Positions 5,124-62,587 of a DNA stretch of 64,000 nucleotides are shown piece after piece. Under the pieces are notes generated by a model that saw only the letters and a list, made by a program, of their open reading frames with translations, was not told the DNA's origin and searched no databases. The stretch's first letter is position 1, and every line of letters begins with the position of its first letter. Source of the stretch: Peronospora farinosa (lineage: Eukaryota > Oomycota > Peronosporomycetes > Peronosporales > Peronosporaceae); contig CANTFK010000943.1 of NCBI GenBank assembly GCA_947646735.1, positions 372,001-436,000 on the forward strand. Direction: 5' to 3'. The position numbers and the translations under genes were made by a program.

Positions 5124-5588
5124 ATGTCCGGAGACCCAACACCCAATCCAGAAGCACTCCCAAGCACCATCAGCGGGAGTGCAACAACCAGCATCATGGC
5201 GCGGCAAATCATACCTTGGTCGCTGTACGACTTGTCCGGATCTCACGCTCCGGACTCACTGGACATGATGCGGGAATACTTCCGCCGATTTCGAAAACTG
5301 CGCGGGAAAGGTCTTGATGGAACCGAGCATGAAGCTCTACAACGTTCTTGGTGCGCCTTCATCCAACGTTGGAATCGGATGCTCGAGGATGGTAGCAGCT
5401 TCCAGTTATGGCTCGCCAATCGAGAGGAACTTCGCGCCGATCACTCCATCGGCGCGCTAATTCGCGAAAGAGTGTGTGAGGAAGCTTGGAATGAGGACCC
5501 TCCTGCTTCGTCCATGTCAATGAAGGATGCCAATCTTGTGACTCGACTCCACGCCCAACTCATGACGAATGGCGAGACACATCGCTGA
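5124..5588 (+). CDS. G2 antisense accessory ORF, N-terminal part (154 aa)
   Basis: ATG at 5124 lies 80 bp inside the 3' LTR and the frame stays open to TGA at 5588, 75 bp before the oppositely running pol ends at 5663. The product has a Pro/Ser-rich start, a PWSLYDLSG motif near residue 30, then an amphipathic helical region (MREYFRRFRKLRGKG, SWCAFIQRWNRML). No signal peptide or membrane segment is seen. Equivalent frames occupy the same place in G1, G3b, G3c, G4a and G5, and the PW and FRRxRxxRGK motifs are shared with G1. I know no named family for it. It could be the first exon or segment of a longer protein continuing at 5700-6540. Confidence 0.6.
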   Translation: MSGDPTPNPEALPSTISGSATTSIMARQIIPWSLYDLSGSHAPDSLDMMREYFRRFRKLRGKGLDGTEHEALQRSWCAFIQRWNRMLEDGSSFQLWLANREELRADHSIGALIRERVCEEAWNEDPPASSMSMKDANLVTRLHAQLMTNGETHR

Positions 5589-5662
5589 GTGTCCACTCAG
5601 CGATCGCGAACGAAGTTGGATTGCAAAGTATGAGCGAAGTCTGAGCGAACGGAGAAGCGCAG

Positions 5663-7048
5663 TTATTCGTGGTGCGCCTCGCTGACAGCACCACTCGCGA
5701 CAGCGGAGTCAATCTCCGCGGGATCATCAGCGTAGGGCAGCGACACGTTCGCTTGTCCGTCCTTCTTCGCGATTCTCGCCTCGCAATCGTGATATAAATT
5801 CACCGCGACGTTCTCGTTCACGGCGTCGTTCTCATTCGCGACATCGTTCTCGTTCACGGCATCGTTCTCGTTCGCGACATCGTTCTCGTTCTGGTCATCG
5901 TTCCCGTTTCCGACAACGTGAATCTCCTTACCGCTCTCGTTTGTCACGAGAGCGTTCGCGTGCTCGCCCGCCTTGGAATAGTCCGACTTCGTGGCTTCAT
6001 ACGACAGAACCACATCTGGAACGTCACGAAGGAGCGAGGAACGTGGTTCCCATGTATCCTGCTCGGGAGGGAATCCAAGCCAACGTACTCGGTACCTACG
6101 CACGGATGGAACCGCACGCTTCTCATGAGCCGACTGCAGTAATGGTTGGGGAGGGTCCTCGTGACCCACAATGCGGTCTACAATCCAGCGCACCTGTCCC
6201 TCCGCATCAACAAGCGGAGGAGGGCCCTCGCGGTGGTAGAGCTGGCGTCCTGGTTGCTCATGACGATGTTGATCAGGCCGTGAATATAGCTGCCGATGCT
6301 CGGCTGGAGGCTGAGGCTGCCAGTGAACGTGCTGCCCAGGCGGAGAAGACTTCGAGTGAGACCCGGCAGTCGAACCGTGAACTGCTCGAGCGGATAAGGG
6401 TTCTGGAGCGCCAGGTGCTTGGTCAGGTCCAGACGGGATCGAGGCCCCACCCCATGTCATCGGCGCGTCGAGCACTACGGGAAGGCCGTTCGACTTACGG
6501 ACCCCTGAAGCCGGCGTCTGAGCCAAACCGTGAAGCGTAGCCGGACGATATTCCTTCAGCCGCCCGACATAGAATGTCGGGTGGAGTCGCAGTGATGAGG
6601 GGACGTCGAGTGTATAAGCGTCGCCGATTGCCTTCAGAACCTTGAATGGACCGATGAAGCGTGGCGCGAGTTTACTCGCGCCCAGATTAGTGACCGCAGA
6701 ATCCCTTAAACCTTCCGTCGATAATAATACACGGGCACCTTTCTCAAACTTGCTCATGTTCTTTCTTCCATGTTTGTCAGCGTTCTCCTTCTGTTGGTCT
6801 ACAGCAGTTTGTAGTGCGTCGCGTACAAACCGGGTGATGGCTTGACGTTGGAGTATAAATTCCGACACGGCCATGTCATCAATTGGTCGCGCCGACTCAA
6901 TCGGCGCGTAGTTGGCAGTAGGGGAACGTTTACCCGAAGACGGGTCAATCAATGTCTGCGCAGCCCATCGAGCTAATGGGGACGCCACGTCTGATGGCGT
7001 CAAAATGGCCGTCTTTGCCTTGGATCGTGTTACTGCATTCGCGCTCAA
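5663..7048 (-). pseudogene. G2 pol C-terminus: GPF/Y module and chromodomain
   Basis: It carries the integrase C-terminal GPF/Y module (LAPRFIGPFKVL to FYVGRLKEY, about 6700-6545), a Pro/His/Gln-rich linker, then a chromodomain (VRWIVDRIVGHED, YRVRWLGFPPEQDTWEP, about 6190-6030). A tail contains eight-residue NENDVANE-type repeats at about 5905-5790, the sense side of the RS-rich antisense stretch. The chromodomain presumably steers integration to particular chromatin. A frameshift near 7045 separates it from the integrase core. Confidence 0.85.
5700..6540 (+). CDS. G2 antisense RS-rich and coiled-coil frame, overprinted on pol
   Basis: In the frame that holds ATG 5941, the stretch upstream (about 5800-5940) reads as Arg-Ser/His-Arg repeats (RSRSRHRSRSRHRSRS). 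The 199 residues from 5941 contain a long coiled coil (about residues 105-160: DARLEAEAASERAAQAEK, ELLERIRVLERQV) and a basic tail, ending at 6540. The sense strand here is the pol linker and chromodomain. G1 has the same RS then coiled-coil order antisense to its own pol linker, which argues against chance. The start and the link to the 5124-5588 frame are uncertain: a splice or a frameshift would be needed. Confidence 0.5.
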
Positions 7049-7759
7049 AATACCGTGAGCTGCACTCGATCCTTGTTTATCACCTTTATCCCCCCCAGAG
7101 TGGAGCCACTAGGTGTTGTGGGTCGCCCCACGGCCAGGACAGTAGGAACACGAGGGTGACGAGCCGAATTTACAAAAAATGGCGTCAACCCTGTTGACGC
7201 GTGTACGGCGTTGTTGAGTGCGAACTCAGCGAGTGGTAAAAATGCACTCCAACTTGTAAATGACGTAGCATAACTCCGAAGAACGTCTTTGAGGACTCGG
7301 TTCACGCGCTCGGTCTGCCCATCCGTTTCCGGATGGGCTGCCGTCGACATCAGCAGTTTTGTCCCGAGGAGCTCGAAAAGTGATGTCCAAAATGCGGACG
7401 TAAATCGCGGATCACGGTCCGAAACAATGTTTTCTGGAAGGCCATGATGTCGGAACACCGCGTCGATGAAGTGCGCCGTGGTCTCTGCCGCGGTGATCTT
7501 AGCGTGAACAGGCACGAGATGTGTCATCTTGCTGAATCGGTCAACAAAAAACAAGATGCCCATTCGAGCTTGGCTATCGGGCGCAAGCCAGAAGATGAAG
7601 TCCATCCAAAATGATCTCCAGGCCTCGGCTGTAATTGGCAACGATCACAAGCGGAGTCTGTGACGATGGAGATGGCTTCACACGCTGGCATATTTCGCAC
7701 GTTCGGATCCAGTTGCGTACCCACTTATACATGTGGGGCCAGAAGAAGTCTCGAGACAC
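7045..7759 (-). pseudogene. G2 integrase core and zinc finger
   Basis: The zinc-finger half (CEICQRVKPSPSS) is in the 7759-7574 frame and the catalytic core in the 7641-7045 frame, so at least one indel splits the gene near 7600. The catalytic triad is visible as FVDRFSK, SDRDPRF and TDGQTERVNR, with usual spacing. It would insert the cDNA into the genome. Confidence 0.85.
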
Positions 7760-9066: not shown

Positions 9067-9072
9067 TACCAG

Positions 9073-10107
9073 CTACTCCCATAACATGCCACTCGGGGTG
9101 CTCACTGCGGTGAGTGGGATATCGCTCGGGCGCATCAAAATATGGTAAAAGCCATCGGTCAAGTCGATGGCACTGAAGATGACACTACCTGACATGGAAT
9201 TCAGCACCATGTCCTTCCTGGGAATTGGCGTTTGCGCAGGAATAGTGGCATCATTCAACTTATTGAACGCATGCACTATCCGCCAGCCTCCCGTAGCCTT
9301 CTTCACGCAGAAGGTTGGACTCGAATGTGGTGAGATACTCTCCCGCACATGACCCGCTTTGCGGCGGCCTTCAAAGAATGCGTCAATAGCTTCGACTTGA
9401 TCTCGAGGCAACGGCCACTGCCGTGTCACACAATACTTCGACCCTGGCACGAGATCAATCTCGTGCCGAACACCGCGGTCCGCAGGAAGTTCAGCCGGGA
9501 TCTTGTCCGGGAACACGTCTGCATACTCACGAGCAATGTCGTAGACGGGGTTACCAGATTCTCGCAGGGCCTCCCATGACTGTGATGCAAACCTTTCTTC
9601 ACGCGCTGACTTCGGCTCAGCGCTTCGAGGACGCGCCATATGCTCCTCGTTTGCCACGGTAACCACCTCGTTGGTGATTAGACACACTTGTTCCACAGTG
9701 CCTCCCTTAAGGTCACGTAGGAAATGCTTCCAGGAAAGCCCTGGAAGACTTGTAATGGAAGACGCATTACGAGGAGGACTCTCGACCTCGATATATTGGC
9801 GCCTTTGTGGACTCCCTTCCACGTACACGATAGCGTGGACACATTCCAACGCTAAATTCTCGGCGCTGTTGTCCCCATCGTGCTTCGAGTCACTACTCGA
9901 AGCTGGCGAACCGCAGTCAGGTGATAAACCATCAACCCCCTCTAGGCACTGGATGTCGTCATCCAAGATGCCGGAAACACTGGACGGGAGTACCCCAAAC
10001 TCGACCGTCGACACTTGATGCGGGAGCTCCTGCTCGGCCGCCGTAAACCCGCGTGGGATCCCCTGCTCAACCACAGTATGCCCATGTGGGAACCTCGGTT
10101 CTACCAC
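9073..10107 (-). pseudogene. G2 linker and RT N-terminal half
   Basis: An acidic/Ser-rich linker is followed by the RT fingers/palm start ([54 protein letters not shown] with the first catalytic Asp). It ends at a TAG replacing a Trp codon in LWEW. Same frame as 9066-7678. Confidence 0.86.
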
Positions 10108-10345
10108 AGTGGGTGATGATGGGAACCCCGGTTCGAACCATCATGCTGTCGCGTGGGGACTCCTGTCCGTCCACGTTGTACTCGTGTGGGAGCCCTGCTC
10201 GACCACAATATGCCCATGTGAAAACCTCGGTTCGACCACAGTGGGTGATGATGGGAACCCCGGTTCGACCATCATGCTCTCGCGTGAGGACTCCTGTCCG
10301 TCCACGTCACACTCGCTGGCGAGCTCTTTCTCGTCGCCACAATGC
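10030..10345 (-). repeat. Tandem duplication in the G2 protease-RT linker (period about 131 bp)
   Basis: Blocks starting with ATGCCCATGTG at 10078 and 10209 repeat the same phrases (GGGTGATGATGGGAACCCCGG, GACTCCTGTCCGTCCACG). The copies differ by single-base indels, including an extra A near 10136, and this puts a TGA into the pol frame between the 11097-10141 and 10107-9073 pieces. Confidence 0.75.
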
Positions 10346-11140
10346 CCTTGTGGGAGCCCCTGCTCGACCACAATAGGTGCAGATGGGAACCCCGGTTCAA
10401 CCACTGCATTCACGTGCGGGAACCCCTGTTCAACCGCATTAATGACGCGCGGGAACCCCTGTTCGACCGCGTCGTCCTCGTCGTCCTCTTCGCTCTGTAG
10501 CGAGGAGTCACTGTCACTTGTGTCCCGAAGAACAGCACAAGCAGTGCAGAGAGGGCCATCGCTCGCTCTGTGCACCGCCAACGTCGTGGAATCGCGATCC
10601 ACGACTGTGACGTTTGGCCAGTCACTTGGAGATACCAAGAGATGGGTAAACACTTCACTGACATCGAACTTGCGTCGACGTCTCACTGATCTGTCTAACC
10701 AGTCGATCTGGGGCTTATAACGTGCCAACCATGGCATGCCCAGTATGCAATCGAATGCATAATTCATCGCGATCACCAAGAAATCATCATTACTGCGAAA
10801 GCCATCAAACGTATACGGCAACGACACTTCGCGCCGCGATACGCGGTGTGGTTTCCCGTCAGCCAACTTGACGACGACTTGGCCAGGTCCCTCACGGACC
10901 TGATTGCTGGGAGGCATCATCGACAAACAAGATTCACGAAAGAAACTGTTTGTTGCTCCTGAGTCCAGGAGTGCTCGCAGAGGTCGCCGGACGCCGGCGA
11001 CATGTAAACTGACAATAATCAGACGTGAATCACCACTCGTAGTGGTGGCATTTAACCGTGCGCGTAGCGCAGGAGGACTGGAAGGTTGGGCTGCCACCGG
11101 GGGACCCGGACCTCCGTTCCAACCAGTAGGGCGCCCTGCA
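10141..11140 (-). pseudogene. G2 aspartic protease and repeat-rich linker
   Basis: The frame is -1 relative to gag and open from the frameshift site. The retropepsin active site is [11 protein letters not shown] (about 10975-10945), with the flap/hydrophobic-Gly region [17 protein letters not shown] (about 10755-10700). A linker of repeated [18 protein letters not shown] units follows, disrupted by the tandem duplication. The protease would process Gag-Pol. Confidence 0.85.
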
Positions 11141-11163
11141 CCTACTGGTCCCGACCGTTTTTT
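11123..11163 (-). promoter_or_regulatory. G2 -1 ribosomal frameshift cassette
   Basis: On minus, the heptamer A AAA AAC (11163-11157) is in the gag frame, 8 nt before a perfect 8-bp stem CCAGTAGG/CCTACTGG (11148-11141 with 11130-11123, 10-nt loop). The gag stop TAG (11144-11142) lies inside the stem. Pol is in the -1 frame, as this predicts. G3 has the same arrangement. Confidence 0.82.
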
Positions 11164-12191: not shown

Positions 12192-12199
12192 AGGAAGGA

Positions 12200-12217: not shown

Positions 12218-12559
12218 TGTAACGGGGCTAGAACGTACCGTCACTAGCTTACACGTGCGCTTGAGGAAGACTCAAGCCCGAGTATTAGGTATTAAGTAAA
12301 TTTAACTCTGATTTTTATTTTGGTTTTAATTCGTACTAATTACGAAGATTTTAGTCGTAATAAATACGACAGTGTTCCTGCCTTTCGGGAACCACACAAT
12401 TTCAGGTTGATTTATCATTGGTCCATATTGGGGACTTTAGGCCCAATAATAAACCAATAATAAATTACCACGCTGTGCCCGCTATTCGGGCCCAGCACCT
12501 GCCTACATATGTAATTGTTTATTTGTGTTAATGCTATATGTGTAATGTAGCCCATTACA
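12218..12559 (-). repeat. G2 5' LTR (342 bp)
   Basis: On minus it starts TGTAATGGGC and ends CCCCGTTACA, pairing with 4703-5044. It contains a short inverted repeat block TACGAAG/ATTTTAGTCGTA that may be structural. Confidence 0.9.
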
Positions 12560-25647: not shown

Positions 25648-27760
25648 ATGTCGCAATCACCATCTGGAACATCTGCGTCCCCTAATCCGACAAACGAATT
25701 CGGGGCTGCCCTGCCGCGATCACTCTTCCATCGTCTGCTAGTTTCCCTAGTGGTCAAGCATAAGTCATCCCTGCTGTGGATCGGGCTACTTTGCAAGCTC
25801 AAATCGATATTCTTTATGACTGCATCGAAACCCACTAAGATATACGCGATACTTATAACTCGATTTACGACGCATCGCGCCTCCAAGAAATCCGCAACGA
25901 TCGCTTGGAGAAGAAGATCAAAGCTTACCAAGAGTTTGCCAATTCTTTCGTAAAATGTGTAATTTGAGAACATAACAATTTACGTCACCAGCTCCAGGAC
26001 GTGAACATTTAGTAGACGATTACCGGGGTAAATTGAGTCATCTCGATCAATATAAAAAAGAGATTTCGGACCTACTTTCCTCTCTCCTCGGTACCAATGT
26101 GGCTCGCCACAAAGATAAAAAAATCAATTCCAATTGCTCGCCGTCGAAAAAGGTAAGTTTCATCGATTGCTGCAGTTGAAGCTGCCGACGGAAAAGTGGC
26201 GCAAGCGCAAAATTTCGAGAGCAAGTGCAACGTCCGTTACGAGGATTTCAAGGACAAATTGAATCGTACGAAGTGTTAGCTTGATGCGACCCGAGTCGAG
26301 CGTGATCAACTCCTGTCAGCAGTCGATGATCGTGAGGCCGATCGTGATCGTTTGGTCACAAAAGTTATTGGTTTGAAATTCGATCGCGATCGCACAATTT
26401 GTGATCCAGATTCTCTTTTCGCTCGTTTAGACGATGTAGTTTATGTTACCGAATTTTCGGCTTCCACCTCGTTGCCCATTATGACCTACACTAAAAGGTT
26501 CCTTCAACGAAACAAACGTCAGCATCAGGTTACTACCCTGGATAAAACAACCTTGAAAAATAAAAGCGGTGATATTACACCCCTTGCTCACCGCCCACTC
26601 TACCTATCGACCATTCTGAATCCAAATTTCACACTCCGGTTGGATTTATTTCGCTTAAAAAATCATACTGGGTCCACGCAGGGAATCCACTCTGTGATTT
26701 TTTTTCGTCCCCTTTACCTGAAGATTTCTGACGACAATAATCAATTTTAAATCTCGTCCAACCAGACTGAAATTTTGTTGTTGACTGCGTTATCTTCGTC
26801 TCGGTCCACGTCCCGAAAACGGCGGCGGCACAGTCTAAGACGGTGTTAACTTCTTCACCGATAACGGTCGACACTTCCAACCCGATTACCTTAACTTCTA
26901 GTATTCAGCCTCGTGTATCCATGGCCGATTTGTTTGAAAAAATATCTGATGATTCTAACAGAATAGGTAGCGAGCTTCGGAGTCCATTCAATCAGCTAAA
27001 TCTACGAAAAAGTCTATGAATCTCCCAGCCACAACTATTAAATCGTCATCGTCAAGCCCTATGGGAAGCGAAATGCGTTTTTCCAATCTCCTATAAGCTA
27101 CGTCTGTAACGGGGCGAGCCCGTTACATAATATTAACACTTATATGAAGTGTCAACAAAAATATTATTATAACTAATAATATTTGACAATATTACCTTTT
27201 CTAATAATATTGTTCCTAGATCTCCTTGAAGTTGGAGATGCCCTCTCATTGGTTGATATGGGCCATCATATCAACCAACGCGCTGACCAATGACCGATGG
27301 ACGCGCGCAATGAGTGGAGGGCAAGTTGTCAACATACATAGTTGTAGTTTAATTTAGTTAACATAGGTTATAACAGATTAGTTTTATTAAGATAGTTAAC
27401 TATATTAAATACAGTTTTCTTTTCCTCTACTTCTAAGCGTTTGTTTAGAAGTAAAGCTTCCTCTGCCTCTTGTGTAAGAGAGGTAATTGAGGCACCTGCT
27501 TTCACTGTAATCAGTGAAAGTAGACTATATTGTAATCAGTATAGTCGGAGGGTGCCCCGTTACAACGTCGATCCGATCCAGCACTAGCCACCTTTGCTAA
27601 GGAGCGAAGTCAACGGCGATCGAGAGCTGTTCCCGAATGGAAAAATGTATTGCAGAAGATTTTGCAAGGTATGATCGACGGCCATTTTTATCGAGACATC
27701 CTATGGACCCAATTACCCTTTACTTTCACCTTCAGAACGAGGTAAAAATGTGGTATCCAG
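25648..27760 (+). pseudogene. G5 antisense accessory gene remnant (coiled coil)
   Basis: ATG at 25648 lies 83 bp inside the G5 3' LTR and opens MSQSPSGTSASPNPTNEF. After frame changes the trace continues as charged helical sequence (LQEIRNDRLEKKIKAYQEF about 25890; ATRVERDQLLSAVDDREADR about 26290) and on to about 26470. Past the inserted G3 LTR (27105-27564) it ends near VPEWKNVLQKILQG (about 27625). Many stops, so it is dead. It is antisense to G5 pol, whose last codons run the other way from 27937. This is the fifth lineage here with such a gene; sequence likeness to the others is low. Confidence 0.5.
27105..27564 (+). repeat. Solo G3 LTR with perfect target duplication
   Basis: 460 bp, TGTAACGGGG to CCCCGTTACA, flanked by ACGTC at 27100-27104 and 27565-27569. 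It is the product of LTR-LTR recombination after a G3 insertion into the G5 antisense gene. Confidence 0.93.
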
Positions 27761-28397: not shown

Positions 28398-28493
28398 TCA
28401 CCCCCCCCCTCAACCAACAGTCACCTTAGTGACTGTTTAGTGACTATGGGAAAGGAGAACTTGTTGAATTTTCTTTCATTCAACAATTACGCT

Positions 28494-29510
28494 ATGACAA
28501 AGTCAATGCGCGTCGCTGCTAAGGCAGCCGAGAGCTCGGCTGCACGCCTGTGTGCAGCCGCTACTGAGGCTTCACAGCCTCATCCAGCAGACATTAATGT
28601 GTCTGCTATAAGTCAACATCAGCCTGCAACGCCTGTTGCAGGTTCACGTAGCGCTTCGCCACGTGAAGATGTTGACCCAGAGTTAGTCGTTGACTACTCT
28701 GGTGAGTCGGATGACGCATCCGGCTCAAAGCCACCTGTGTCACTCCCGGGCTCTCCCCGGGGTGATACCTCGTCGTCTAATGCTACGAAGAGAGATCGTG
28801 GTACATTGAGTGAATCAATGTACCGTGAAATGTTCGGTTCGTCTGATGAATCAGACGACTCGCCAAACGAGTCGAAGGATAGTGACTCGGGTGAGGACCG
28901 TACGGGTGATGTCAGTACTTCTACTGACATCAATGCTCATAGTGTCGGTACTTCTGTTGACACTAATGCTCGTGGTGTCGGTACTTCTGTTGACACCACG
29001 CAGGAGGCTTTAGACCGCAACGTATTGCGTCTTGCTCCTGATCGCAAGCCATGGATGCTACCTAAGCATCTGCTTGATCGTTGGTCTGGAAAGACCAACG
29101 AACGGTTCCCCATACCGTTGTTTGATGCGTCAAAGCTTCATGGACTTGACGCCAGTGCGAAGAACTTTCGCACTGAGAACGATTTTTACATCGATGTGTT
29201 CCTTGAACATCGATGGTATGGCCCACACAAGAAGCGTGAGGCCGACGCGTTCCTCCAATCTTGGAACGCGTTTATCGCCAACGTTTTAAACGTTGGGAAA
29301 GAGGCTTGGTTTCAAAGACTTTATGCTAGCCGCAATAAGTTTCAGAAACGAAGTACGTCCGGTGCATGCTATCGTTTGCACCGGTTATCTAGAGAGGCAG
29401 GCCTGTTATGCCTCTCTTGGGGCGACCCATGCCCGGGGTGCCTGAGCCCCTCGTCAAGAGCGCCTAAGGAGGCGTACCTCCTTACTGAGGAGGGCTCGCA
29501 TCTCTTCTGA
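28494..29510 (+). CDS. G3b antisense accessory ORF (about 338 aa)
   Basis: The conserved ATG (MTKSMRVAAKAA) is 97 bp inside the 3' LTR; an in-frame ATG at 28446 is also possible. Residues 1-165 are Ser/Asp-rich and probably disordered (VVDYSGESDD, SSDESDDSPNES), with three GTSVDT-type units where G3c has fewer. A helical part follows: KPWMLPKHLLDRW, FYIDVFLEHRW, LQSWNAFIANVLNVG. The SWxAFI helix resembles the G2 antisense product. It stops at 29510, 34 bp from the end of pol on the other strand. Open in both G3b and G3c. Function unknown. Confidence 0.62.
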   Translation: MTKSMRVAAKAAESSAARLCAAATEASQPHPADINVSAISQHQPATPVAGSRSASPREDVDPELVVDYSGESDDASGSKPPVSLPGSPRGDTSSSNATKRDRGTLSESMYREMFGSSDESDDSPNESKDSDSGEDRTGDVSTSTDINAHSVGTSVDTNARGVGTSVDTTQEALDRNVLRLAPDRKPWMLPKHLLDRWSGKTNERFPIPLFDASKLHGLDASAKNFRTENDFYIDVFLEHRWYGPHKKREADAFLQSWNAFIANVLNVGKEAWFQRLYASRNKFQKRSTSGACYRLHRLSREAGLLCLSWGDPCPGCLSPSSRAPKEAYLLTEEGSHLF

Positions 29511-29515
29511 AATGC

Positions 29516-30205
29516 GTGAAGAGATTGCTACTTTGCAATCCCTTTACGAGCGCGCTGGGCGCTCGTATTCCGATGGTCCTTCACCCATCGGGTGCTCCTT
29601 GTCGTACTGTTCGACAAGGCCGTGAACGTCGGCCATCAGTTGGGCCCGAGGTTCCCAGCTATCCGCCGAAAGCGGATAGCCACGCCACCGGACGAGATAA
29701 ATTGTCCGACGTCCCTTCACATCGCGGTGATTTCGCAATCGTTCCACAAGGAAGCGCTTCCCACCGTTTGAGTCCTCCAACGGATGCGGTGGTGGAGGGA
29801 AAACCCTGTCCGATTATTTCATCGGACTTGTCTGCTGAGTTATACGGGTTTGACCGTGTAACTCGTGAGCTACGTTGTGATGTCGATCACGAACGGGATA
29901 AGCGTCGCCGCTTAGAGGACATTGTGCGACAGCTTGGGTTTGACCATGAAAAGTCTCGGGAAGCAATGCTTTCACACTGTTATAGAATGAGAGTATACTT
30001 CATTCTCTAAGTAACGACCTGACGACAGCTCGTCAGGAGATCGTCCATTATCATGGGACGATCTCATCTCTACACGACCAGATATCGAATCTGGTTCGTG
30101 ACAACAAGAATCTGAAGGGGATTCTTGAGAGTAATGGCTATCTTCGTCGTTCGAAGAAGCCGCGTACTGAACGTACGGACGAAGACGTCCCACGTAAAAC
30201 GTAGG
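29516..30205 (+). pseudogene. G3b antisense continuation: coiled coil over the pol chromodomain and linker
   Basis: In other plus-strand frames the trace goes on: MREEIATLQSLYERAGRSY (about 29512), VTRELRCDVDHERDKRRRLED (about 29860) to 29999, then after a stop RQEIVHYHGTISSLHDQISNLV (about 30030) to 30205. Heptad-like Leu/Ile spacing suggests a coiled coil. The sense strand is the pol linker and chromodomain. Frame breaks mean it is either a decayed gene or one needing splicing. Confidence 0.42.
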
Positions 30206-38057: not shown

Positions 38058-38299
38058 TTCCCCACCAGGTTAAGGTTTTACAGAATGTTTCGTGACACAA
38101 TTCCACTTTAAGGTAGTGCTTCGCAAACGTTTAGCCTGAGGGTTGTTAACAAGCACGCATGAGCCTTATTGGAAATGAGTCCGACACTTTTAAAGATCTC
38201 CGTTAAGGAGATCTTAATAAAGCGGTTGTTTACGCAAGTGAAACCTTCTATATAAAATCCGATGGGTCCTGCCTTACCAACCCCAATTCAAACATAAGA

Positions 38300-39430
38300 T
38301 GTCTGTATTCATTCCCCAAACGAGGTGCTGTGGATCCGCTATCAGCATTACGCGTTCCCATTTACGTATCGACAACGGCGACGATTACCAATCCGCTCGA
38401 TGAGCAACAACAACGAGCCACTGACAAAAAAGGCGCAAAAAGTCGGCCCAAGAGCATAGCCAGACTCCATGACCAACGAAAACATAAGTTTACATCACTA
38501 TCTGAGGAAGATCGCCTCAAGAAGGTGGCTGTTCAGTCCCTATCAGGGTGGGTCATTGGCCCTGAAGACACCTCATAGAGATATCGCTTCGTGAACGTCA
38601 CTTTTGAAGCGGTATGTAAAACCACACGTCACCACGAAAAAACAATAATTTGCACACCTGGCTAGGTATGCACGTATTCTCCCCTAAAGGGTGTTCTCAT
38701 CCTTTTTCGCAGGCGAAATAGAGGAGGAGATTATGGTTCTTATCCGCTGGGAGTACTATGAGCGATGCTTGAAGCATGAAATCTATGCAATTACGGGATA
38801 ACGTGGCAGACTTTCACTTCGAACGGAAGATGCGCTATAAATACGCATATATTAAAGCCCTCGACCTGTTGCGGTCGAAATAATCACAATATGCGTCGAA
38901 CACGCAGCACTTACGTGAATCGTAAGTGCTTAGGAGCCTGCGGCTAAAGGTTACCCCTGCAGCCGCAAGCTCCTGACAAGCTGCGGTAGTCAGCTCGCCC
39001 GCTCTCACCAGTAATGGTGCGAGTCATTACTGGTGAGTAGCGCAAAGTAGCCTACTCTCACCATTACTAGTGAGAAGCGCCGTTGGTCCCAAAATGACCC
39101 TAAGAGCGATTTCAAAAACGTCAATGGCGTATGGGAAATCTCGCCGATGGTCTATCTCACATTCTTACAAGCTCCATGACTCAGGGTACCCACGCCACTT
39201 CGTCGAATACTAGCTTTTAACATGGTGAAGACGCTTCTGGAGAAGTTTGATCACATGTACCTATAGGTAACCATGCTCATCTAGCAATGCCGATGGCGGC
39301 CGGTGTATCCGCGAAAGCTCAAGATGAGTTATTGCAGGAGGTGGAATGTCTCCGTCAGACGTTAAGCCATTATCAGAGCGCGCTTGACGCGGTAGGCACG
39401 TCTGCAGGCGTTATATTAGCATAAACCCTC
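38300..39430 (+). pseudogene. G4c antisense accessory gene remnant
   Basis: The 38330-38578 frame (TITNPLDEQQQRATD, EEDRLKKVAVQSLSGW) matches the middle of the G4a antisense product. A later stretch at 39285-39415 reads as a short coiled coil (AQDELLQEVECLRQTLSHY). Several stops and indels between. It shows that the antisense gene was already present in this older G4 copy. Confidence 0.6.
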
Positions 39431-41059: not shown

Positions 41060-42637
41060 TGGTGCGCATGCCCGGATCTTCTGGTGACTCGGGATTTTAC
41101 CGTAAGTCCCGGAGAGAAGATGTCTCGATGAAGACTGAACTAGGAATTATAGATTCAAAGGCAAAAGGATCGCGGCAGACGCGTGAAAGAAAAGTATTCC
41201 CGGATCGCAAGAGTTTTGGAACGGCCGCAGACGAGAAGAAAAAAGAAGATCATTAGATAAATCTGAAAATGAAATTTCTATTCCCTCCCTAGGTCCCTTT
41301 GGGTATACCTGCGGATCGCGTTGCAAAGCGCAATTCGCGAGATGAAAAATATTCAGTAAAAATTGAGAGATTTTTTTCCATACCATCCCTGCGAGACCTT
41401 AGAATAAAGAGCCGATAAAATTTACAGTTGCAGATGAAGGCGCCACGATAAGTTCGCGATGTTCAGACGAAGAAATCGGACGATCGTATTGTTTAGTACG
41501 GTCGATTAAAGATTAAATATCGAAAGATCAACGAACATTAAAATTGGAACAGCGTTTTCACCAGGAAGAGCTAAAGACTTTGCTATCGATCGATCCAATT
41601 TTTAAGTATATGAAGATTAAACTAGATGGATCACTGCAAGGAACGGTATCAGCTTCAGTAGAAACACCGAATCAGTTAAAAGCGATTCGTTGTCTGTTTA
41701 AGTTGCTCAAGGAGACAGGATTCACTGCTGGGGCGTTTATGCGGCCACATTGTTGGAATGTAATTTCAATCAAATGATCAAGGCAGGACGATCGTTGTTC
41801 GAGGTGTTAACACTTCACACTGGATATTATCAAACGATTGCACCGGCCACTAAGACGTATCAAACGGGATCATCACAGTATGCATCGGCAGAATCGGAGA
41901 CGGAATTAAGAGAATCACTTCCCATTCAACAAAATTGTTGGGACCGTCTGGTGCGGCGTTTATAGGCGAAGGAACGACGACGATCGAAACGAAAGTAAAA
42001 TCGACCGATGTACCCATGGTTCGAGAAATGAATCCAATAGGACCAAACCAGCTGGATTTTTATTTAAAGCAGGCAAGAAGATGTACGAAGACGATCAACG
42101 GACTTTGACTTTTGCCCAACAAAAATGCCAATTGGTTAAGGATCAACGCCACTCCTCAAATGATGAATATTTCAAATGTGGAGATGGATTCAGTTGGATC
42201 GCGTCATATTCGATCCAATATTTGCGATCCTCTAGATCTAGGACTCGAAGATCCAAGACGACCTATGGTGGCAGCTGCAGAAGCCATGCCGAGTGTTGGG
42301 TTGACTACACAACGAATTCGAGTATCGGCGATCGCAGGTTTTTGTAAAAAGTTTACCGGGCGAGACAGAGAAGAAGATCGAACCAAAAGCTGGTTCAGTA
42401 AAGTCAAATTTGCCTTCTTACCTGATCAAGATCCTGACATCGAAAATTGTATTGTGTTTGTAGATCTGTTGACGGGGCTAGCACAGCTAAGCCGTTCGAC
42501 TCGTCATTACTGAAAATCTCTATTGGAAAGTTTCATGATACAATATGGAGGGTGTAATGTATCTATTAAAAGACAATGCTATTGTGCAAAGAAACAACCA
42601 AATGAAACAACAATCCAGTATCTGTATCGGCTAAATG
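41060..42637 (+). pseudogene. G5 leader and gag, first part
   Basis: Decayed leader, then gag traces: a helical piece at 41544-41777 and a capsid-like stretch at 42300-42500 (EDRTKSWFSKVKFAFLPDQ, LTGLAQLSRSTRHY). The G4a insertion splits it at the AAATG duplication (42633-42637 and 50389-50393), and the Gag reading resumes at 50389. Confidence 0.7.
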
Positions 42638-43275
42638 TGTAACGGGGTTACACGACGGTTGCAGCGTCTTTCCGAGAGTTTACGGTTAAACTTTCCTTTC
42701 TATTGCATATAATGCATTATTATACTTCTCTTTAGAGAGGTATTAAGTATGAGCGTTAAGATACGGTATTCGGTAATACCGTATCTTATCGATTGGGATT
42801 CGATAAATCACTAACGCTGTATTAAGTACATCATACACAGATATTTAGACGATACGTCGTCCAATCACAAAGTCTGCATATAAAAATTACTATTATAGTA
42901 ATTAATCTAGTGTAGTGTACTTAGAGTAGGACTATTCATAAAATCTTAAAGCATAAATAAAATCAGTTCTCCTTTTGAGTTTAAGATTGCAAGTCGTTTT
43001 GACTTGTTCTCTTGTGCACTTCGTGCGTTGGTTCTCTGAACCTCTAAGCTTCTAGCTTGTTCTTGCACTCTGTGCGTTGGTTCTCTGAGCCTTAAGCTTA
43101 TTGCTTGCTGACTAAAAGTCTCTCCTACTTCCTTAGAACAGGGTGACTTTAAGTCGTTTAATTAGTTCCTTAGAACTAAGTGGCTTTTAGCCTTAACTCT
43201 ATTTAGTTCTCTAAAACTAATAGGCTTCCAGCCGAAAGTCTTTCGCTGGCTAAACGGCTGTGCAGCTCCGCTACA
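42638..43275 (+). repeat. G4a 5' LTR (638 bp)
   Basis: TGTAACGGGGTTACACG to CAGCTCCGCTACA. Contains CGGTATT/AATACCG and ATCGATTGGGATTCGAT hairpins and direct repeats of TGCGTTGGTTCTCTGA. Primer site at 43278. Confidence 0.95.
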
Positions 43276-47159: not shown

Positions 47160-47971
47160 GGCTGTTGTACTATCGTACAGATGTGGCGGATCCTCCGCGT
47201 ATTGTGGTTCCTCATGACGAGGACCTGAAGTATTATATCCTCTATGAGGTACATGACACCGCCATCGGTGGTCATGTGGGTCATGAAAAGACCTATGGGG
47301 CAGTATGCCATAGTTATTGATGGCCCAAATTATATAAATGGGTGAGCACATATGTACGTACGTGTGAAACGTGTCAACGGGTGAAACCCTCACCCCATTC
47401 GGCAGCGCCGCTGGCTAGTTTGCCTATTCCCACTGGGTGCTGGGAGTCCATTAGTATGGACTTTGTGTTTGGCCTACCGAAAGATTCGCATGGCAATACA
47501 GGTATTGTGGTCTTTGTTGACCGCTTGAGCAAAATGGCTCATTTAGCGGCTGTGCCAGACTCGATCGATGGTGAGGGTACAGCGGAGCTGTTTATCGATC
47601 GAGTGTTTCGCCAACATGGCTTGCCAGTGGCAATTGTTTCTGATCGTGATCCTCGTTTTACGAGTAAATTTTGGAAGTCCGTCTTCCAGGTGCTGGGCAC
47701 CCGTTTGGACATGTCCACAGCGGATCATCCGCAGACCGATGGCCAAACCGAACGCGTAAATCGCGTTGTGGAAGATATCCTACGCAGTGTATTTGCTGAA
47801 ACACCTGAGCGTTTGATCTCTATACTTCCTATTGTAGAGTTTGCGCTCAATAACCTCGTGTACGCCTCTATCGGCAACACTTCTTTTTATGTGAATGGCC
47901 TCATACTCACGCGTTCCGTTAACGCTACCACCGAATGGTTCAGGGTTTGGTGGGGGAGAAGTTACCGATAG
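47160..47971 (+). pseudogene. G4a integrase
   Basis: Finger HDTAIGGHVGHEKT to CETCQRV (with a stop in the FYWP position near 47320) and the core with FVDRLSK, SDRDPRF, TDGQTERVNR. A frameshift near 47905 leads into the GPF/Y frame. Confidence 0.86.
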
Positions 47972-48734
47972 ACTTGCTGATGTCTGCCCTACTACTGTTA
48001 AGAAACAGGTGAACGCGTTTCTCGCAACGCGACTGAATGTTTTACGACATGTGCATGACGCAATGGCTGATAGCCAAGATAAACAGAAAGAATATGCGGA
48101 TGCTAAAAAAGGCCAAAGCTGTATTGATTATAATGAGGTCGGAGACCAAGTGTTACTACACGCTAAGAACCTACCTACTAAAGTAGCGTCTGCTGTCTTT
48201 AAGACAAGGTTGCGTCCACGCTTCATCGAACCCTTTACGATCGTGGCCAAGAAAACCTTAGCGTATACGCTTAATCTGCCGCGCATATTCCGTACGAACC
48301 CCGAATTCTATGTTGGCATCCTAAAGCCGTATCGGGATCCATCCCAAGTGGATACTAAGGCTCTCGCGCCGAGCTCATCGGCACTACCGCAGGAGGTATC
48401 ATTTGGACCAAAGATGTCAAGATGCCCAACCACTCGGGTTCGACTCTTCTCCAACGACTTGAGACGATCATTCATCTTCTGCACAGTCTTAAAGCGACAT
48501 TCACCTCTTAGCGTAGCTTGGCATGAGCTTGTGCCGGTACACCGGCCTCCTCCGGCTTTGCTCGATGCGCAGGGGAACCTACAGTTCCATGTGGAGCGTC
48601 TACTGCAGAAGCGTCGCCGCTATGGTCAAAACCAGTATCTGGTAAAGTGGCGGGGTTATCCCGAGTCGTGGAATTCATGGGAGTTTGAGACTCCCCTTCG
48701 GCAGGACTGCCCATACGCCGTGGACGTTTTTTGA
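47895..48734 (+). pseudogene. G4a GPF/Y module and chromodomain
   Basis: GPF/Y-like stretch (LRPRFIEPFTIVAKKT, FYVGILKPY, about 48205-48330), linker, then chromodomain (LQFHVERLLQKRRR, YLVKWRGYPESWNSWEF, about 48570-48690). Open in one frame to TGA at 48734, overlapping the antisense frame by up to 78 bp tail to tail. Confidence 0.85.
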
Positions 48735-49639
48735 GCGTCGTGCGCAGGGTCAGCCTGTTGGCGCTGACGCTTCTCACCAGTAATGGTGGGCGTGGGCGGG
48801 TTAGCGGCCTCGGCCTGTCGTGAACTTGCGGCTACAGGGGTAGCCGAAACATTGGGATGCTGGGTAGCAGACGCATAATGCGTTCGTTGTGACTTCAATT
48901 TTCCCCGGGCCTTCAATTTAGCGTAATCGTAACGCATTTTCCGTTCGAGTCGAACATCTGCCACATCGGCACTTGCCCGTAGAGACCACATGCTGCTTAA
49001 ACGTCGCGCATAATGCGCCCAGCGGCTAAAAGCCGTATCTTCTTCCTCCTCGGTTTCTCCCGCGAATAAAAGGATGGGAAGACCCTTTACGGGAGGAACT
49101 GGCGCACCGCGCACTTGCCTGTTAAGGCGTGCCAAGTATTGGCTTTGTGTAGTAATATGGGGTTCCAGATATCGTTGTCGAAGTGCCGTGCGTGTGGCAA
49201 CATCCTCAGGTGAAATGGCCTCAGGCCCAATGGTCCAGCCAGAAAGGGAATGCCCAGATGCTTCCTTTAGGCGTTCTTCCACCGTAGGTGGCTTGAACCT
49301 GTACTGTCGGTGGTCCTGCAGTCTCGTCATATTCTTCGTCCGGCGCTTGGCGCCTTCCTCTTGGTCGGTGGTCCGCTGTTGCTGCTCGTCGAGTAGGTTG
49401 GTAACCGTTACCGTTGATGATACGTCAGGCGGGTCACGTAACGCTGTTAGCGCATCTGTAGCACCACGTTCATGGAACGGATTCGGTGCATGACGAGTGT
49501 CATCTTCACCCGTGAGGGTGGCTAAAGGGGACCCATCGGGTCCCACAAAGACGGTGTCACTTTCGTAATCAACCGCTTCGTCAAGGTCGTCCTCAATAAG
49601 GTCCCTAAGAGTTTGTGACTCACTGCCGGGAGGCGTCAT
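48656..49639 (-). CDS. G4a antisense accessory ORF (about 327 aa)
   Basis: First ATG on minus is 49639 (MTPPGSESQTL), 112 bp inside the 3' LTR. N-terminal acidic part (IEDDLDEAVDYESDT), a middle with SLSGWTIGPEAISPED, then a basic helical part (FSRWAHYARRLSSMW, VRLERKMRYDYAKLKARGK) and a disordered tail. Open throughout although pol of the same element is broken in many places, which hints at constraint or chance survival. No family recognised. The G4c copy has a decayed version. Confidence 0.62.
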   Translation of the reverse strand: MTPPGSESQTLRDLIEDDLDEAVDYESDTVFVGPDGSPLATLTGEDDTRHAPNPFHERGATDALTALRDPPDVSSTVTVTNLLDEQQQRTTDQEEGAKRRTKNMTRLQDHRQYRFKPPTVEERLKEASGHSLSGWTIGPEAISPEDVATRTALRQRYLEPHITTQSQYLARLNRQVRGAPVPPVKGLPILLFAGETEEEEDTAFSRWAHYARRLSSMWSLRASADVADVRLERKMRYDYAKLKARGKLKSQRTHYASATQHPNVSATPVAASSRQAEAANPPTPTITGEKRQRQQADPAHDAQKTSTAYGQSCRRGVSNSHEFHDSG

Positions 49640-49750
49640 GTTGTGTGCCGTGAACAAACCGTGAGGTTTTAAAAGTTCGCTAAAGCACTACCTCTATGAG
49701 GAAAGATGTCGAGTGACATTCTATGGGAACGTCAGTCTGGTGGGGGAGGG

Positions 49751-50388
49751 TGTAACGGGGTTACACGACGGTTGTAGCGTCTTTCCGAGAGTTTACGCTA
49801 AAACTTTCCTTTCTATTGCATATAATGCATTATTATACTTCTCGTTAGAGAGGTATTAAGTATGAGCGTTAAGATACGGTATTCGGTAATACCGTATCTT
49901 ATCGATTGGGATTCGATAAATCACTAACGCTGTATTAAGTACATCATACACAGATATTTAGACGATACGTCGTCCAATCACAAAGTCTGCATATAAAAAT
50001 TACTATCATAGTAATTAATCTAGTGTAGTGTACTTAGAGTAGGACTATTCATAAAATCTTAAAGCATAAATAAAATCAGTTCTCCTTTTGAGTTTAAGAT
50101 TGCAAGTCGTTTTGACTTGTTCTCTTGTGCACTTCGTGCGTTGGTTCTCTGAACCTCTAAGCTTCTAGCTTGTTCTTGCACTCTGTGCGTTGGTTCTCTG
50201 AACCTTAAGCTTATTGCTTGCTGACTAAAAGTCTCTCCTACTTCCTTAAAACAGGGTGACTTTAAGTCGTTTCATTAGTTACTTAGAACTAAGTGGCTTT
50301 TAGCCTTAATTCTATTTAGTTCTCTAAAACTAATAGGCTTCCAGCCGAAAGTCTTCCTCTGGATAAAGAGCTGTGCAGCTCCGCTACA
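49751..50388 (+). repeat. G4a 3' LTR (638 bp)
   Basis: Nearly identical to 42638-43275; differences include AAAACAGGG for AGAACAGGG and CTCTGGATAAAGAG near the end. Followed by AAATG. Confidence 0.95.
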
Positions 50389-52360: not shown

Positions 52361-53551
52361 TGTGGTGAAGTGGTTTCCTAAATTGTGAAGAACCCAGGGG
52401 CTAGTTGGATTGAAGGGACAAGGGGCCGTGGAAAACCACGCACCAGAGAGAAGGGACCGGAGATAAAGGGAACCTCGGAGTGAAGCGACCGTTGGCTGAG
52501 AATTTGAAAGACAAACAAAGGAGAGGTCATTACCAGGGTACTGTTTAACCGGTACCGAAGGGAGTCGACCATGGCCCTCATTGGTCGACCCGGTCCATCA
52601 TTAATCGAACAGGTCCCTCATCGGTAGACCTGGGTCCCTCATCGGTAGACCTCGGCTCCTCGTCGGTAGACCCGGTCCCTCATTGGTAGACCTGGGTCCC
52701 TCGTCGGTCGACCTGGTCCCTCATTGGTCGACCCGGTCCCTCGCTGGTCGACCTGGGTCCCTCATTGGTCGACCTGGGCCCCTCATTGGTCGACCCGGTC
52801 CCTCGCTGGTAGACCTGGGTCCCTCATTGGTCGACCTCGGCCCCTCGGGGTTCAGCCACTCCTGACCAGTTAATACAAGGATCAGACCAGTCGACACAAG
52901 GAATCAGAGCTTCAGGCAAGGATAGAGTAAAGGAGTCACAAGGATAGGACTATATAAAATACTACTTAATTTGCGATCTACGTGGCACGACTCCGTCACC
53001 CAAGAAGAACTTGTTCTAAGTTACTCACTGTTCCGGATAGGGAATATACTTTGGCCCCCCGTCGAAGAAAGTTGTGTAGCGAAGTTTAAGTGCGAATAGA
53101 GCTCCAGGATATATTTGGCCTGTGAGCTCGTTCGAGTAGCAACACCACCCAAGACCCGCTATCGGAAGCGGTCTCCCTCACCTCAAGGTCCGGGAGCAAC
53201 GTAAAGGTCAGGTAGTTAATACCCCTGAAACAGAAGGAAAAGGCCAGGGACGACAAGCGCCCCTGAAGAATTTGGCTCTAAGTCCACTCTCGACAAGGTC
53301 GATCGAGTGGCCACCTACCGGCCCACCGAGTGAAGCATATCCACTCGAGGCTCCCCAGGTCTAACTCCCTCAAGGCAGAAATATACATCGTCACCAAGTC
53401 ATCCGAAGAGTGCAACCCGCCAGCCGACGGGTACACAAGGTGAGAGAAGGTTCATACGCGGCATCGGTGTACCCCCTCCGACAGTCGGCAGTCCGGCACA
53501 GTGAGTGGTTTGGGGTCTCATCATACAATTTTGAGAACCCACTCCACCACA
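52361..53551 (+). repeat. Solo G5-type LTR (1191 bp)
   Basis: TGTGGTG to CACCACA (perfect 7-bp inverted ends) with CATG on both sides (52357-52360, 53552-53555). Holds the minisatellite at 52577-52850 and, downstream of it, ACTATATAAAATAC (about 52950), a good TATA box. It interrupts G5 itself. Confidence 0.85.
52577..52850 (+). repeat. GGTCGACC minisatellite in the solo G5 LTR
   Basis: About 12-13 imperfect units of 20-22 bp around GGTCGACCTGGGTCCCTCAT. The 12760-12830 copy has about three. It sits just upstream of the TATA region, so it may act as an enhancer-like array. Confidence 0.88.
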
Positions 53552-55055: not shown

Positions 55056-55516
55056 TGTAACGGGGTGAGCCCGTTACATAATATTGACACTTATATGAAG
55101 TGTCAATAAAAATATTATTATAACTAATAATATTTTGACAATATTACCGTTTCTAATAATATTGTTCCTAGATCTCCTTGAAGTTGGAGATGCCCTCTCA
55201 TTGGTTGATATGGGCCATCATATCAACCAACGCGCTGACCAATGACCGATGGACGCGCGCAATGAGTGGAGGGCAAGTCGTCAACATACATAGTTGTAGT
55301 TTAATATAGTTAACATAGGTTATAACAGATTAGTTTTATTAAGATAGTTAACTATATTAAATACAGTTTTCTTTTCCTCTACTTCTAAGCGTTTGTTTAG
55401 AAGTAAAGCTTCCTCTGCCTCTTGTGTAAGAGAGGTAATTGAGGCACCTGCTTTCACTGTAATCAGTGAAAGTAGACTATACTGTAATCAGTATAGTCGG
55501 AGGGTGCCCCGTTACA
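55056..55516 (+). repeat. G3c 5' LTR (461 bp)
   Basis: TGTAACGGGG to CCCCGTTACA. Contains a row of hairpins: GACACTT/AAGTGTC, GGTTGATATG/CATATCAACC (55203-55228), ACTTCTAA/TTTAGAAGT, CTTTCACTG/CAGTGAAAG, CTATACTG/CAGTATAG. Confidence 0.94.
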
Positions 55517-55518: not shown

Positions 55519-55534
55519 TGGTAGCACTTCGTGG
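55519..55534 (+). promoter_or_regulatory. G3c primer-binding site
   Basis: TGGTAGCACTTCGTGG, two bases past the LTR. Confidence 0.75.
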
Positions 55535-55563
55535 TCCGTTCAGCGACCACCGCACCATCCGCT

Positions 55564-56724: not shown

Positions 56725-56743
56725 GGGCGGAGCGCCCTACTGA
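56703..56743 (+). promoter_or_regulatory. G3c -1 ribosomal frameshift cassette
   Basis: A AAA AAC at 56703-56709 in the gag frame, 8-nt spacer, 9-bp stem 56718-56726 with 56735-56743, gag TAG (56722-56724) inside the stem. Pol is open in the -1 frame from before the stop. Confidence 0.85.
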
Positions 56744-59617: not shown

Positions 59618-59646
59618 CGCCACAACATGATCTCAGGTTACGGATC

Positions 59647-60759: not shown

Positions 60760-60794
60760 TTTTACTGTCAACAGTAAACCTACTTAAACATGTA

Positions 60795-61570
60795 GTGACT
60801 AACGTGGGCAGCAATAAATTGTTGCCCAAGTACATCGGCCCGTTTCGTGTATTGCGCCGCCTAGGCAACGCATACACGATCGAGTTGCCACGCAGGATGC
60901 GTACGCATCCTACGTTTTACGTGGGACGTCTTCGTCCGTACGTTCAGTACGCGGCTTCTTCGAACGACGAAGATAGCCATTACTCTCAAGAATCCCCTTC
61001 AGATTCTTGTTGTCACGAACCAGATTCGATATCTGGTCGTGTAGAGATGAGATCGTCCCATGATAATGGACGATCTCCTGACGAGCTGTCGCCAGGTCGT
61101 TACTTAGAGAATGAAGTATACTCTCATTCTATAACAGTGTGAAAGCATTGCTTCCCGAGACTTCTCATGGTCAAACCCAAGCTGTCGCACAATGTCCTCT
61201 AAGCGGCGACGCTTATCCCGTTCGTGATCGACATCACAACGTAGCTCACGAGTTACACGGTCAAACCCGTATAACTCAGCAGACAAGTCCGATGAAATAA
61301 TCGGACAGGGTTTTCCCTCCACCACCGCATCCGTTGGAGGACTCAAACGGTGGGAAGCGCTTCCTTGTGGAACGATTGCGAAATCACCGCGATGTGAAGG
61401 GACGTCGGACAATTTATCTCGTCCGGTGGCGTGGCTATCCGCTTTCGGCGGATAGCTGGGAACCTCGGGCCCAACTGATGGCCGACGTTCCCGGCCTTGT
61501 CGAACAGTACGACAAGGAGCACCCGATGGGTGAAGGACCATCGGAATACGAGCGCCCAGCGCGCTCGTAA
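60795..61570 (+). pseudogene. G3c GPF/Y module and chromodomain
   Basis: GPF/Y at 60795-60960, acidic/Ser linker to 61142, stops, then chromodomain (YLVRWRGYPLSADSWEP) at 61334-61570. The opposite strand carries the antisense coiled-coil frame. Confidence 0.83.
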
Positions 61571-61598
61571 AGGGATTGCAAAGTAGCAATCTCTTCAC
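61000..61598 (-). pseudogene. G3c antisense continuation (coiled coil)
   Basis: Same as 29516-30205 in G3b: open minus frame 61598-61104 with VTRELRCDVDHERDKRRRLED, then a further coiled-coil piece to about 61000. Retained in both copies with the same stop. Confidence 0.42.
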
Positions 61599-61603
61599 GC
61601 ATT

Positions 61604-62587
61604 TCAGAAGAGATGCGAGCCCTCCTCAGTAAGGAGGTACGCCTCCTTAGGCGCTCTTGACGAGGGGCTCAGGCACCCCGGGCATGGGTCGCCCCAAGAG
61701 AGGCATAACAGGCCTGCCTCTCTAGATAACCGGTGCAAACGATAGCATGCACCGGACGTACTTCGTTTCTCAAACTTATTGCGGCTAGCAAAAAGTCTTT
61801 GAAACCAAGCCTCTTTCCCAACGTTTAAAACGTTGGTGATAAACGCGTTCCAAGATTGGAGGAACGCGTCGGCCTCACGCTTCTTGTGTGGGCCATACCA
61901 TCGATGTTCAAGGAACACATCGATGTAAAAATCGTTCTCAGTGCGAAAGTTCTTCGCACTGGCGTCAAGTCCATGAAGCTTTGACGCATCAAACAACGGT
62001 ATGGGGAACCGTTCGTTGGTCTTTCCAGACCAACGATCAAGCAGATGCTTAGGTAGCATCCATGGCTTGCGATCAGGAGCAAGACGCAATACGTTACGGT
62101 CTAAAGCCTCCTGCGTGGTGTCAACAGAAGTACCGACACTATGAGTATTGATGTCAGTATAGGTACTGACATCACCCTTACGGTCCCCACCCGAGTCACT
62201 ATCCTTCGACTCGTTTGGTGAGTCGTCTGATTCATCAGACGACCCGAACATTTCACGGTACATTGATTCACTCAATGTACCACGATCCCTCTTCGTAGCA
62301 TTAGACGACGAGGTATCACCCCGGGGAGAGCCCGGGAGTGGAATAGGTGACTTTGAGCCGGATGCGTCATCCGACTCACCAGAGTAGTCAACGACTAACT
62401 CTGGGTCAACATCTTCACGTGGCGAAGCGCTACGTGAACCTGCAACAGGCGTTGCAGGCTGATGTTGACTTCCAGCAGACACTAATGTGTCTGCTGGCTG
62501 AGGCTGTGAAGCCTCAGTAGCGGCTGCACACAGGCGTGCAGCCGAGCTCTTGGCTGCCTTAGCAGCGACGCGCATTGACTTTGTCAT
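61604..62587 (-). CDS. G3c antisense accessory ORF (327 aa)
   Basis: ATG 62587 (MTKSMRVAAKAAK), 98 bp inside the 3' LTR, open to 61604. Matches the G3b product except for fewer GTSVDT units and scattered changes (QPQPADTLVSAGSQ for QPHPADINVSAISQ). Disordered acidic N-half, helical C-half with KPWMLPKHLLDRW and LQSWNAFITNVLNVG. Its intactness contrasts with the broken pol on the other strand. Confidence 0.65.
   Translation of the reverse strand: MTKSMRVAAKAAKSSAARLCAAATEASQPQPADTLVSAGSQHQPATPVAGSRSASPREDVDPELVVDYSGESDDASGSKSPIPLPGSPRGDTSSSNATKRDRGTLSESMYREMFGSSDESDDSPNESKDSDSGGDRKGDVSTYTDINTHSVGTSVDTTQEALDRNVLRLAPDRKPWMLPKHLLDRWSGKTNERFPIPLFDASKLHGLDASAKNFRTENDFYIDVFLEHRWYGPHKKREADAFLQSWNAFITNVLNVGKEAWFQRLFASRNKFEKRSTSGACYRLHRLSREAGLLCLSWGDPCPGCLSPSSRAPKEAYLLTEEGSHLF

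Follow-up and report, generated by a model that had tools for sequence, protein, structure and literature searches.

Does a gene run against gag and pol at the 3′ end of oomycete Ty3/gypsy retrotransposons, and if so, what might it encode? The question is raised by a stretch of 64,000 nucleotides from Peronospora farinosa (contig CANTFK010000943.1, our C248:372001-436000; hereafter the window), in which an earlier note had described five element lineages, G1 to G5, each with a reading frame on the strand opposite to pol that starts near the 3′ long terminal repeat (LTR). We examined the copies in the window and sought further ones in the 46.85-Mb genome. Our answer, which we consider likely, is that G1 to G4 carry a protein-coding accessory gene opposite gag-pol, which would be expressed from the 3′ LTR in the reverse direction and whose product would be a nuclear, oligomeric regulator of the element. 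The antisense frame is kept by purifying selection as a protein, and in all four families it shares its overlap with pol in alternating zones of constraint.

Antisense genes at the 3′ LTR

In G1 to G4 the distance between LTR end and antisense ATG is 81-111 bp, on the interior side of the 3′ LTR (111 bp in G1, 96 in G3b, 97 in G3c, 111 in G4a and, taking the LTR alignment end at 5042 as the edge, 81 in G2), in agreement with the 80-112 bp first reported. The start keeps this position both across copies and across the four families; a start not conserved across copies was among the outcomes that the earlier note had named as refuting an antisense gene. Other genome copies of G2 and G3 have an extra in-frame ATG 66 and 48 nt farther upstream, respectively, so that the start is uncertain there. 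Read in the antisense direction, the reference copies have TTACA at the end of their LTRs; next comes a C-rich tract, which presumably corresponds to the polypurine tract in complement.

The frames of 150-340 codons previously noted as open were recovered in all four copies concerned: 5124-5588 (+) in G2, with 154 amino acids (aa); 28494-29510 (+) in G3b, within a 356-aa open reading frame (ORF); 62587-61604 (-) in G3c, with 327 aa; and 49639-48656 (-) in G4a, with 327 aa counted from the ATG. Compared with less decayed copies elsewhere in the genome, the window copies are nevertheless frameshifted (G2 around residues 146-173, G4a around 303, G3b and G3c around 348-385 and 508, G1 in several places); the antisense genes of the window are broken, and the ORFs seen before are the 5′ parts of longer genes. 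The features are as follows.

2819..4226 (-): G1 antisense gene, broken by frameshifts; matched by the L076 frame of 468 aa (tblastn); 111 bp from the LTR end
4703..5042 (-): G2 3′ LTR; self-blastn; partner at 12218-12557, 90.6% identical
5061..6537 (+): G2 antisense gene, broken by frameshifts; matched by the L042 frame of 487 aa (tblastn); overlaps opposite-strand pol 6874-5666
5663..7048 (-): G2 pol end, integrase SH3 and chromodomain; Pfam PF24626 and PF00385
27938-28397 and 35629-36086: G3b LTR pair, 97.4% identical
28446..30201 (+): G3b antisense gene, broken by frameshifts; matched by the L034 frame of 588 aa (tblastn)
38159..39358 (+): G4-type antisense relic of a diverged element; pieces of 39-45% identity; opposite pol tail 39834-39111 (-)
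42637-43275 and 49750-50388: G4a LTR pair, 97.7% identical
47895..48734 (+): G4a pol end, integrase SH3 and chromodomain; Pfam
48358..49639 (-): G4a antisense gene, first 304 residues open, then frameshifted; matched by the L070 frame of 427 aa (tblastn)
55056-55516 and 62685-63145: G3c LTR pair, 99.3% identical
60913..62611 (-): G3c antisense gene, frameshifted; tblastn

The G4-type relic at 38159-39358 (+) had been missing from the earlier list. In the less decayed copies the antisense frame reaches 468 aa in G1 (L076), 487 in G2 (L042), 588 in G3 (L034) and 427 in G4 (L070). Queries of this full length match at least 106 (G1), 89 (G2), 87 (G3) and 101 (G4) places in the genome, some of them fragmentary, and these are lower bounds since only the best candidates were scored; the 30-locus sets consist of the copies closest to the window copy. 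When near-full-length matches were counted by eye from the tables, as those running from residue 1-3 to the last or last-but-one residue with shorter ones dropped, stop-free matches made up 7 of 29 in G1, 17 of 51 in G2, 11 of 21 in G3 and 33 of 67 in G4.

The hosts of these genes are Ty3/gypsy families with a chromodomain at the end of pol. The window copies G2 and G3c match the Pfam families for gag (PF03732, Retrotrans_gag), reverse transcriptase, RNase H and integrase of Ty3/gypsy type, and G1 and G4a, scanned as single ORFs, match part of this set. Pol of G1 to G4 ends in an integrase SH3 domain (PF24626) and a chromodomain (PF00385), both above the Pfam cut-off, and the chromodomain is detected in the window copies of G2 and G4a themselves. 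Wrong element polarity was considered and rejected because pol, gag and LTR ends are concordant.

Overlap with pol

The frames had been thought to run tail to tail into pol. They do lie on the opposite strand at the end of pol, but the gene continues past that end and overlaps pol over about 140-350 codons, up to the integrase SH3 domain: the antisense stop faces pol residue 157, 112, 167 and 97 in G1, G2, G3 and G4, and the corresponding ends of the SH3 match are at 160, 110, 178 and 90. The phase of the overlap is identical in the four families, with antisense codon positions 1, 2 and 3 opposite pol positions 1, 3 and 2; as three phases are possible, this gives modest support for a common origin. 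The frames exceed chance expectation in G1 to G4. With pol codons redrawn synonymously, the probability that the overlap stays open in the antisense direction is 0.0005 in G1, 0.0003 in G2, 0.0008 in G3 and 0.11 in G4, and with the real codons permuted it is 0.0000, 0.0003, 0.0010 and 0.08, the reference copies for both calculations having been picked for their open antisense frame.

Averages over the whole overlap hide a division into zones. Opposite the chromodomain the antisense frame has a ratio of nonsynonymous to synonymous differences per site (pN/pS) of 1.24, 0.96, 1.61 and 1.55 in G1, G2, G3 and G4, and pol one of 0.39, 0.45, 0.36 and 0.21; opposite the linker between integrase and chromodomain the ratios are reversed, at 0.51, 0.64, 0.71 and 0.67 for the antisense frame and 1.23, 0.84, 0.89 and 0.93 for pol. 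These values are pooled over 7 G1, 11 G2, 8 G3 and 9 G4 copies selected for divergence (the G2 and G3 copies being 11 of the 38 and 8 of the 33 used in the variant test below), which are not independent, one reference per family having served for all, so that p-values from them are nominal. The chromodomain stretch is thus owned by pol and the linker stretch by the antisense gene in all four families. Compared with the chromodomain, the linker shows less synonymous change in pol in G1, G3 and G4, with no such drop in G2 (p 0.36). Compared with the part where pol is alone, it shows less in G3 (p 0.003) and G4 (p 0.0003), again with no drop in G2 (p 0.43); for G1 the pol-only value is even lower than that of the linker (0.034 vs 0.055).

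The end of pol in G1 (L076:676-1104, -) runs about 140 codons beyond the chromodomain into the antisense gene. Between G1 and G2 this tail is 20% identical, compared with 45-47% for antisense residues 36-298 of G2, and the tail may therefore be a passenger of the antisense frame.

Selection where pol is absent

Outside the overlap the antisense frame can be judged by itself. The ratio of nonsynonymous to synonymous substitution rates (dN/dS, Nei-Gojobori) is 0.13-0.35 in all 9 G4 comparisons (0.13 between G4a and L070, 0.35 between the relic at 38159-39358 and L070), where the two shifted frames give 1.10-3.14, and it is 0.11-0.70 in all 7 comparisons of G1. In G3 the core (residues 190-363) has 0.16-0.50 in 4 of 4 comparisons, and the entire pol-free part 0.37, 0.60, 0.72, 0.98 and 1.01; the core is therefore kept, and the N-terminal part not visibly so.

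A second test uses an internal control, comparing variants found in a single copy, mostly post-insertion, with those shared by at least three; variants present in just two, and sites represented in fewer than 12 copies, were excluded. In the pol-free part of the G2 antisense gene the nonsynonymous to synonymous ratio (N/S) falls from 2.82 in single-copy variants to 1.12 in shared ones (38 copies, p 0.006), and within the overlap from 2.45 to 1.41 (p 0.034). Pol alone, as the coding control, falls from 1.83 to 0.45 in G2 and from 2.78 to 0.60 in G3. Purifying selection, whose absence the earlier note had named as grounds against an antisense gene, is accordingly found by both dN/dS and the variant test.

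Predicted product and its relatives

AlphaFold2 models the G2 product with a helical core at about residues 52-203 (predicted local distance difference test, pLDDT, mostly 73-90 by block), a disordered stretch from about 206 to 392, then a helix spanning 395-447 (pLDDT 94-97 over most of it). A similar model was obtained for G3: its helical core spans about 186-372 (pLDDT 70-93 from residue 201 on), a disordered stretch reaches from about 381 to 457, and residues 458-565 form a helix of 108 residues (pLDDT 91-98 over most of it). The whole-model predicted template modelling score is low (0.30 and 0.37, respectively). The chromodomain faces antisense residues 307-370 in G2 and 387-438 in G3, within the disordered part, and a C-terminal coiled coil is predicted opposite the integrase-chromodomain linker in both. 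The products of G1 and G2 have a basic, Arg/Ser-rich middle. A C-x(5,8)-C-x2-C motif is present in the reference proteins of G1 to G3, as well as in 18 of 21 aligned G1/G2 proteins and 36 of 45 aligned G3 proteins, and G4 is without it. Neither Pfam nor fold searches recognised a known domain or fold in the antisense products.

A search for related proteins, as the earlier note had suggested, found them in Peronospora, Hyaloperonospora and Phytophthora, with 194 matches for G3, 19 for G2 and 77 for G4 at E up to 0.001. The G3 homologues are from Peronospora effusa and P. matthiolae (among the 120 of 194 matches listed), those of G2 from Phytophthora capsici, ramorum, rubi, fragariae, infestans, idaei and megakarya as well as Peronospora matthiolae and destructor, and those of G4 from Peronospora and Hyaloperonospora. 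The closest named relatives among the matches listed are from Peronospora effusa, with identity up to 93%, and one cluster at 90% identity, named from Peronospora matthiolae, has 1,335 member sequences. Where names are given, these read 'uncharacterized', 'hypothetical' or 'unnamed protein product'.

Among the families themselves, the homology of the G1 and G2 genes is secure by alignment (45% identity over 166 residues), and the motifs that they had been said to share are real. The likeness of G2 and G3, first noticed as a common SWxAFI helix, extends to an end-to-end alignment including PW, LYD/LFD, SW-x-AFI and the Cys motif; descent of G3 from the same ancestor as G1 and G2 is only suggestive, because shuffled sequences reach the G1/G2-G3 profile score (4 of 60, 5 of 100 and 1 of 100), and in a global run, which gave no support, 59 of 100 did so. 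For G4 no kinship with the other families was found by the profile-shuffle tests, 10 of 60 and 26 of 60 shuffles matching the score. The best full-length profile match between families (G2-G3 and G2-G4) sits opposite the chromodomain and is accounted for by pol.

Comparison with known antisense genes

Antisense accessory ORFs between pol and the 3′ LTR (aORF-3R) are described, in excerpts of two papers, for maize Grande (gene23), rice RIRE2, Retand and Phaseolus PvRetro13 among plants and also for the fungal element Boty (PMC7264820, PMC11963269). The Grande product is stated there to be nuclear and to have its own promoter (PMC7264820, PMC11963269), and Retand to be a lineage outside the chromoviruses, with TRP28 in most of its antisense ORFs (PMC11963269). 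The genes of G1 to G4 resemble these as antisense ORFs that lie where pol and 3′ LTR meet and that recur in many copies. However, they overlap the end of pol, an overlap that the excerpts do not mention for the plant ORFs; their hosts, unlike Retand, carry a chromodomain; and TRP28 (PF04195) was not matched in their products by Pfam at E up to 0.1 and 1. On these three grounds the gene is of a known kind, an antisense accessory ORF, but belongs to another family than the plant aORF-3R.

A further parallel is HBZ of human T-cell leukaemia virus type 1 (HTLV-1), a bZIP protein that acts as a regulator for the virus. HBZ is nuclear, according to an excerpt of PMC11963269. It too is encoded by an antisense gene at the 3′ LTR, and the predicted coiled coil would add to the resemblance. 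The host here is, in contrast, an oomycete retrotransposon, not a retrovirus, and Pfam reported no bZIP domain in the antisense products.

The paper 'Convergence of retrotransposons in oomycetes and plants' (PMC5348765) treats Ty3/gypsy elements of oomycetes and, in the text available, uses the word chromodomain 14 times; in a term search, antisense, additional and accessory ORFs did not turn up in it. Nor was an antisense ORF in oomycete LTR elements found described in the titles and abstract openings brought up from open-access PMC, a search that most subscription journals fall outside. Antisense accessory genes, described from plant elements, a fungal element and some retroviruses, here occur in oomycete, chromodomain-bearing elements, across several families and many copies. 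Database entries for such proteins are labelled uncharacterised or hypothetical, and they can pass for host genes. The overlap, in addition, is a clear case of opposite-strand genes alternating in constraint, in four families, which makes the evolution of antisense genes testable on sequence data.

Proposed function and alternatives

Transcription of the gene would start in reverse in or near the 3′ LTR, and the product would enter the nucleus and form oligomers through its coiled coil. The oligomer could then regulate its own element at the level of transcription, RNA processing or integration, on the model of HBZ in HTLV or of what has been proposed for the antisense ORFs of Grande and Retand. 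Taken separately, the assignment as a nuclear regulator is tentative, with a chance slightly short of even.

Several results weigh against this proposal. The putative nuclear and regulatory roles draw on composition and analogy. No initiator motif is common to the families. Openness of the G4 overlap is compatible with chance, and two of the five G3 comparisons over the whole pol-free part lie near neutrality. The variant test in G3 (33 copies) gives a fall of N/S from 2.86 to 1.90 in the pol-free part (p 0.12) and no drop within the overlap (2.43 to 2.46). Antisense dN/dS over the whole overlap is 0.53-1.16, an average that masks the zones. In the linker, the antisense coiled-coil stretch has no advantage in conservation over the opposing pol when G1 is compared with G2 (32% vs 31%).

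Of the other explanations, the one that survives best, though we consider it unlikely, is that the protein acts against silencing or defence by the host and is not a regulator of the element. An antisense promoter would make its expression independent of the sense LTR, and the basic Arg/Ser-rich middle of G1 and G2 would suit such a role; however, no known suppressor domain was found in the domain scans. Somewhat less probable still is a partner in particle assembly or of integrase, for instance a second structural protein, for which the helical core and coiled coil predicted in the G2 and G3 models would be appropriate, whereas gag is already encoded in G2 and G3c (Pfam Retrotrans_gag). Alternatively, the antisense RNA might be the functional product, as a trigger of silencing by double-stranded RNA or in copy-number control, with the frame incidental. 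Antisense non-coding transcripts occur in other elements (PMC7264820, in excerpt), and Gypsy elements of Phytophthora infestans give small RNAs from both strands (PMC3522703, in excerpt). Selection at the amino-acid level in the pol-free part and protein homologues in other genera nevertheless make this improbable as the whole explanation, and the RNA could act beside the protein. The gene may also be a captured host gene, though the products show no known domain, in scans that included no search aimed at host-gene homologues. Chance antisense ORFs, as a by-product of pol and base composition, could explain the G4 overlap if taken alone, as pol explains the top match of G2 with G3 and G4, but we reject them as very improbable, since they are largely refuted by pol-free dN/dS of 0.11-0.70 (G1, G4 and the G3 core), overlap probabilities of 0.0003-0.0008 in G1 to G3 and homologues in three genera, together with a conserved core of G2 to G4 where no pol frame exists.

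Beyond the regulator proposed for G1 to G4, a broader picture is conceivable, if rather doubtful: a single antisense gene would predate the split of Phytophthora and Peronospora and be standard across a clade of oomycete chromodomain retrotransposons, the folded domain of each strand lying opposite the flexible linker of the other, and its product would be an HBZ-like nuclear partner of the chromodomain integrase or of the LTR.

G5 and other features of the window

Five families had been proposed, of which G1 to G4 stand; G5 is a relic with only 101 open codons, and no pol partner for it was found within the window.

25648..26992 (+): G5 antisense relic, 101 codons open; 32-43% identical to a 474-aa frame in L080

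Reverse frames at 25648 are full of stops. One of three relatives examined supports the antisense arrangement: on C259 (L083) the ORF lies tail to tail with a chromodomain pol, without overlap, the chromodomain at this pol end being above the Pfam cut-off and SH3 below it, and the first 61 residues of the ORF piece are 90% identical to the product of L080. No pol tail was found in the stretches examined on C10, between facing ORFs, and on C36. The two facing G5-type ORF copies on C10 (L082 and L080; C10:269700-275000) form a long inverted repeat, 95% identical.

Two repeats were also observed in the window. At 10047-10403, within the G2 element, two overlapping stretches of about 229 bp are 83% identical and represent a local duplication, and at 52564-52847 a unit of about 41 bp is repeated in a short tandem array.

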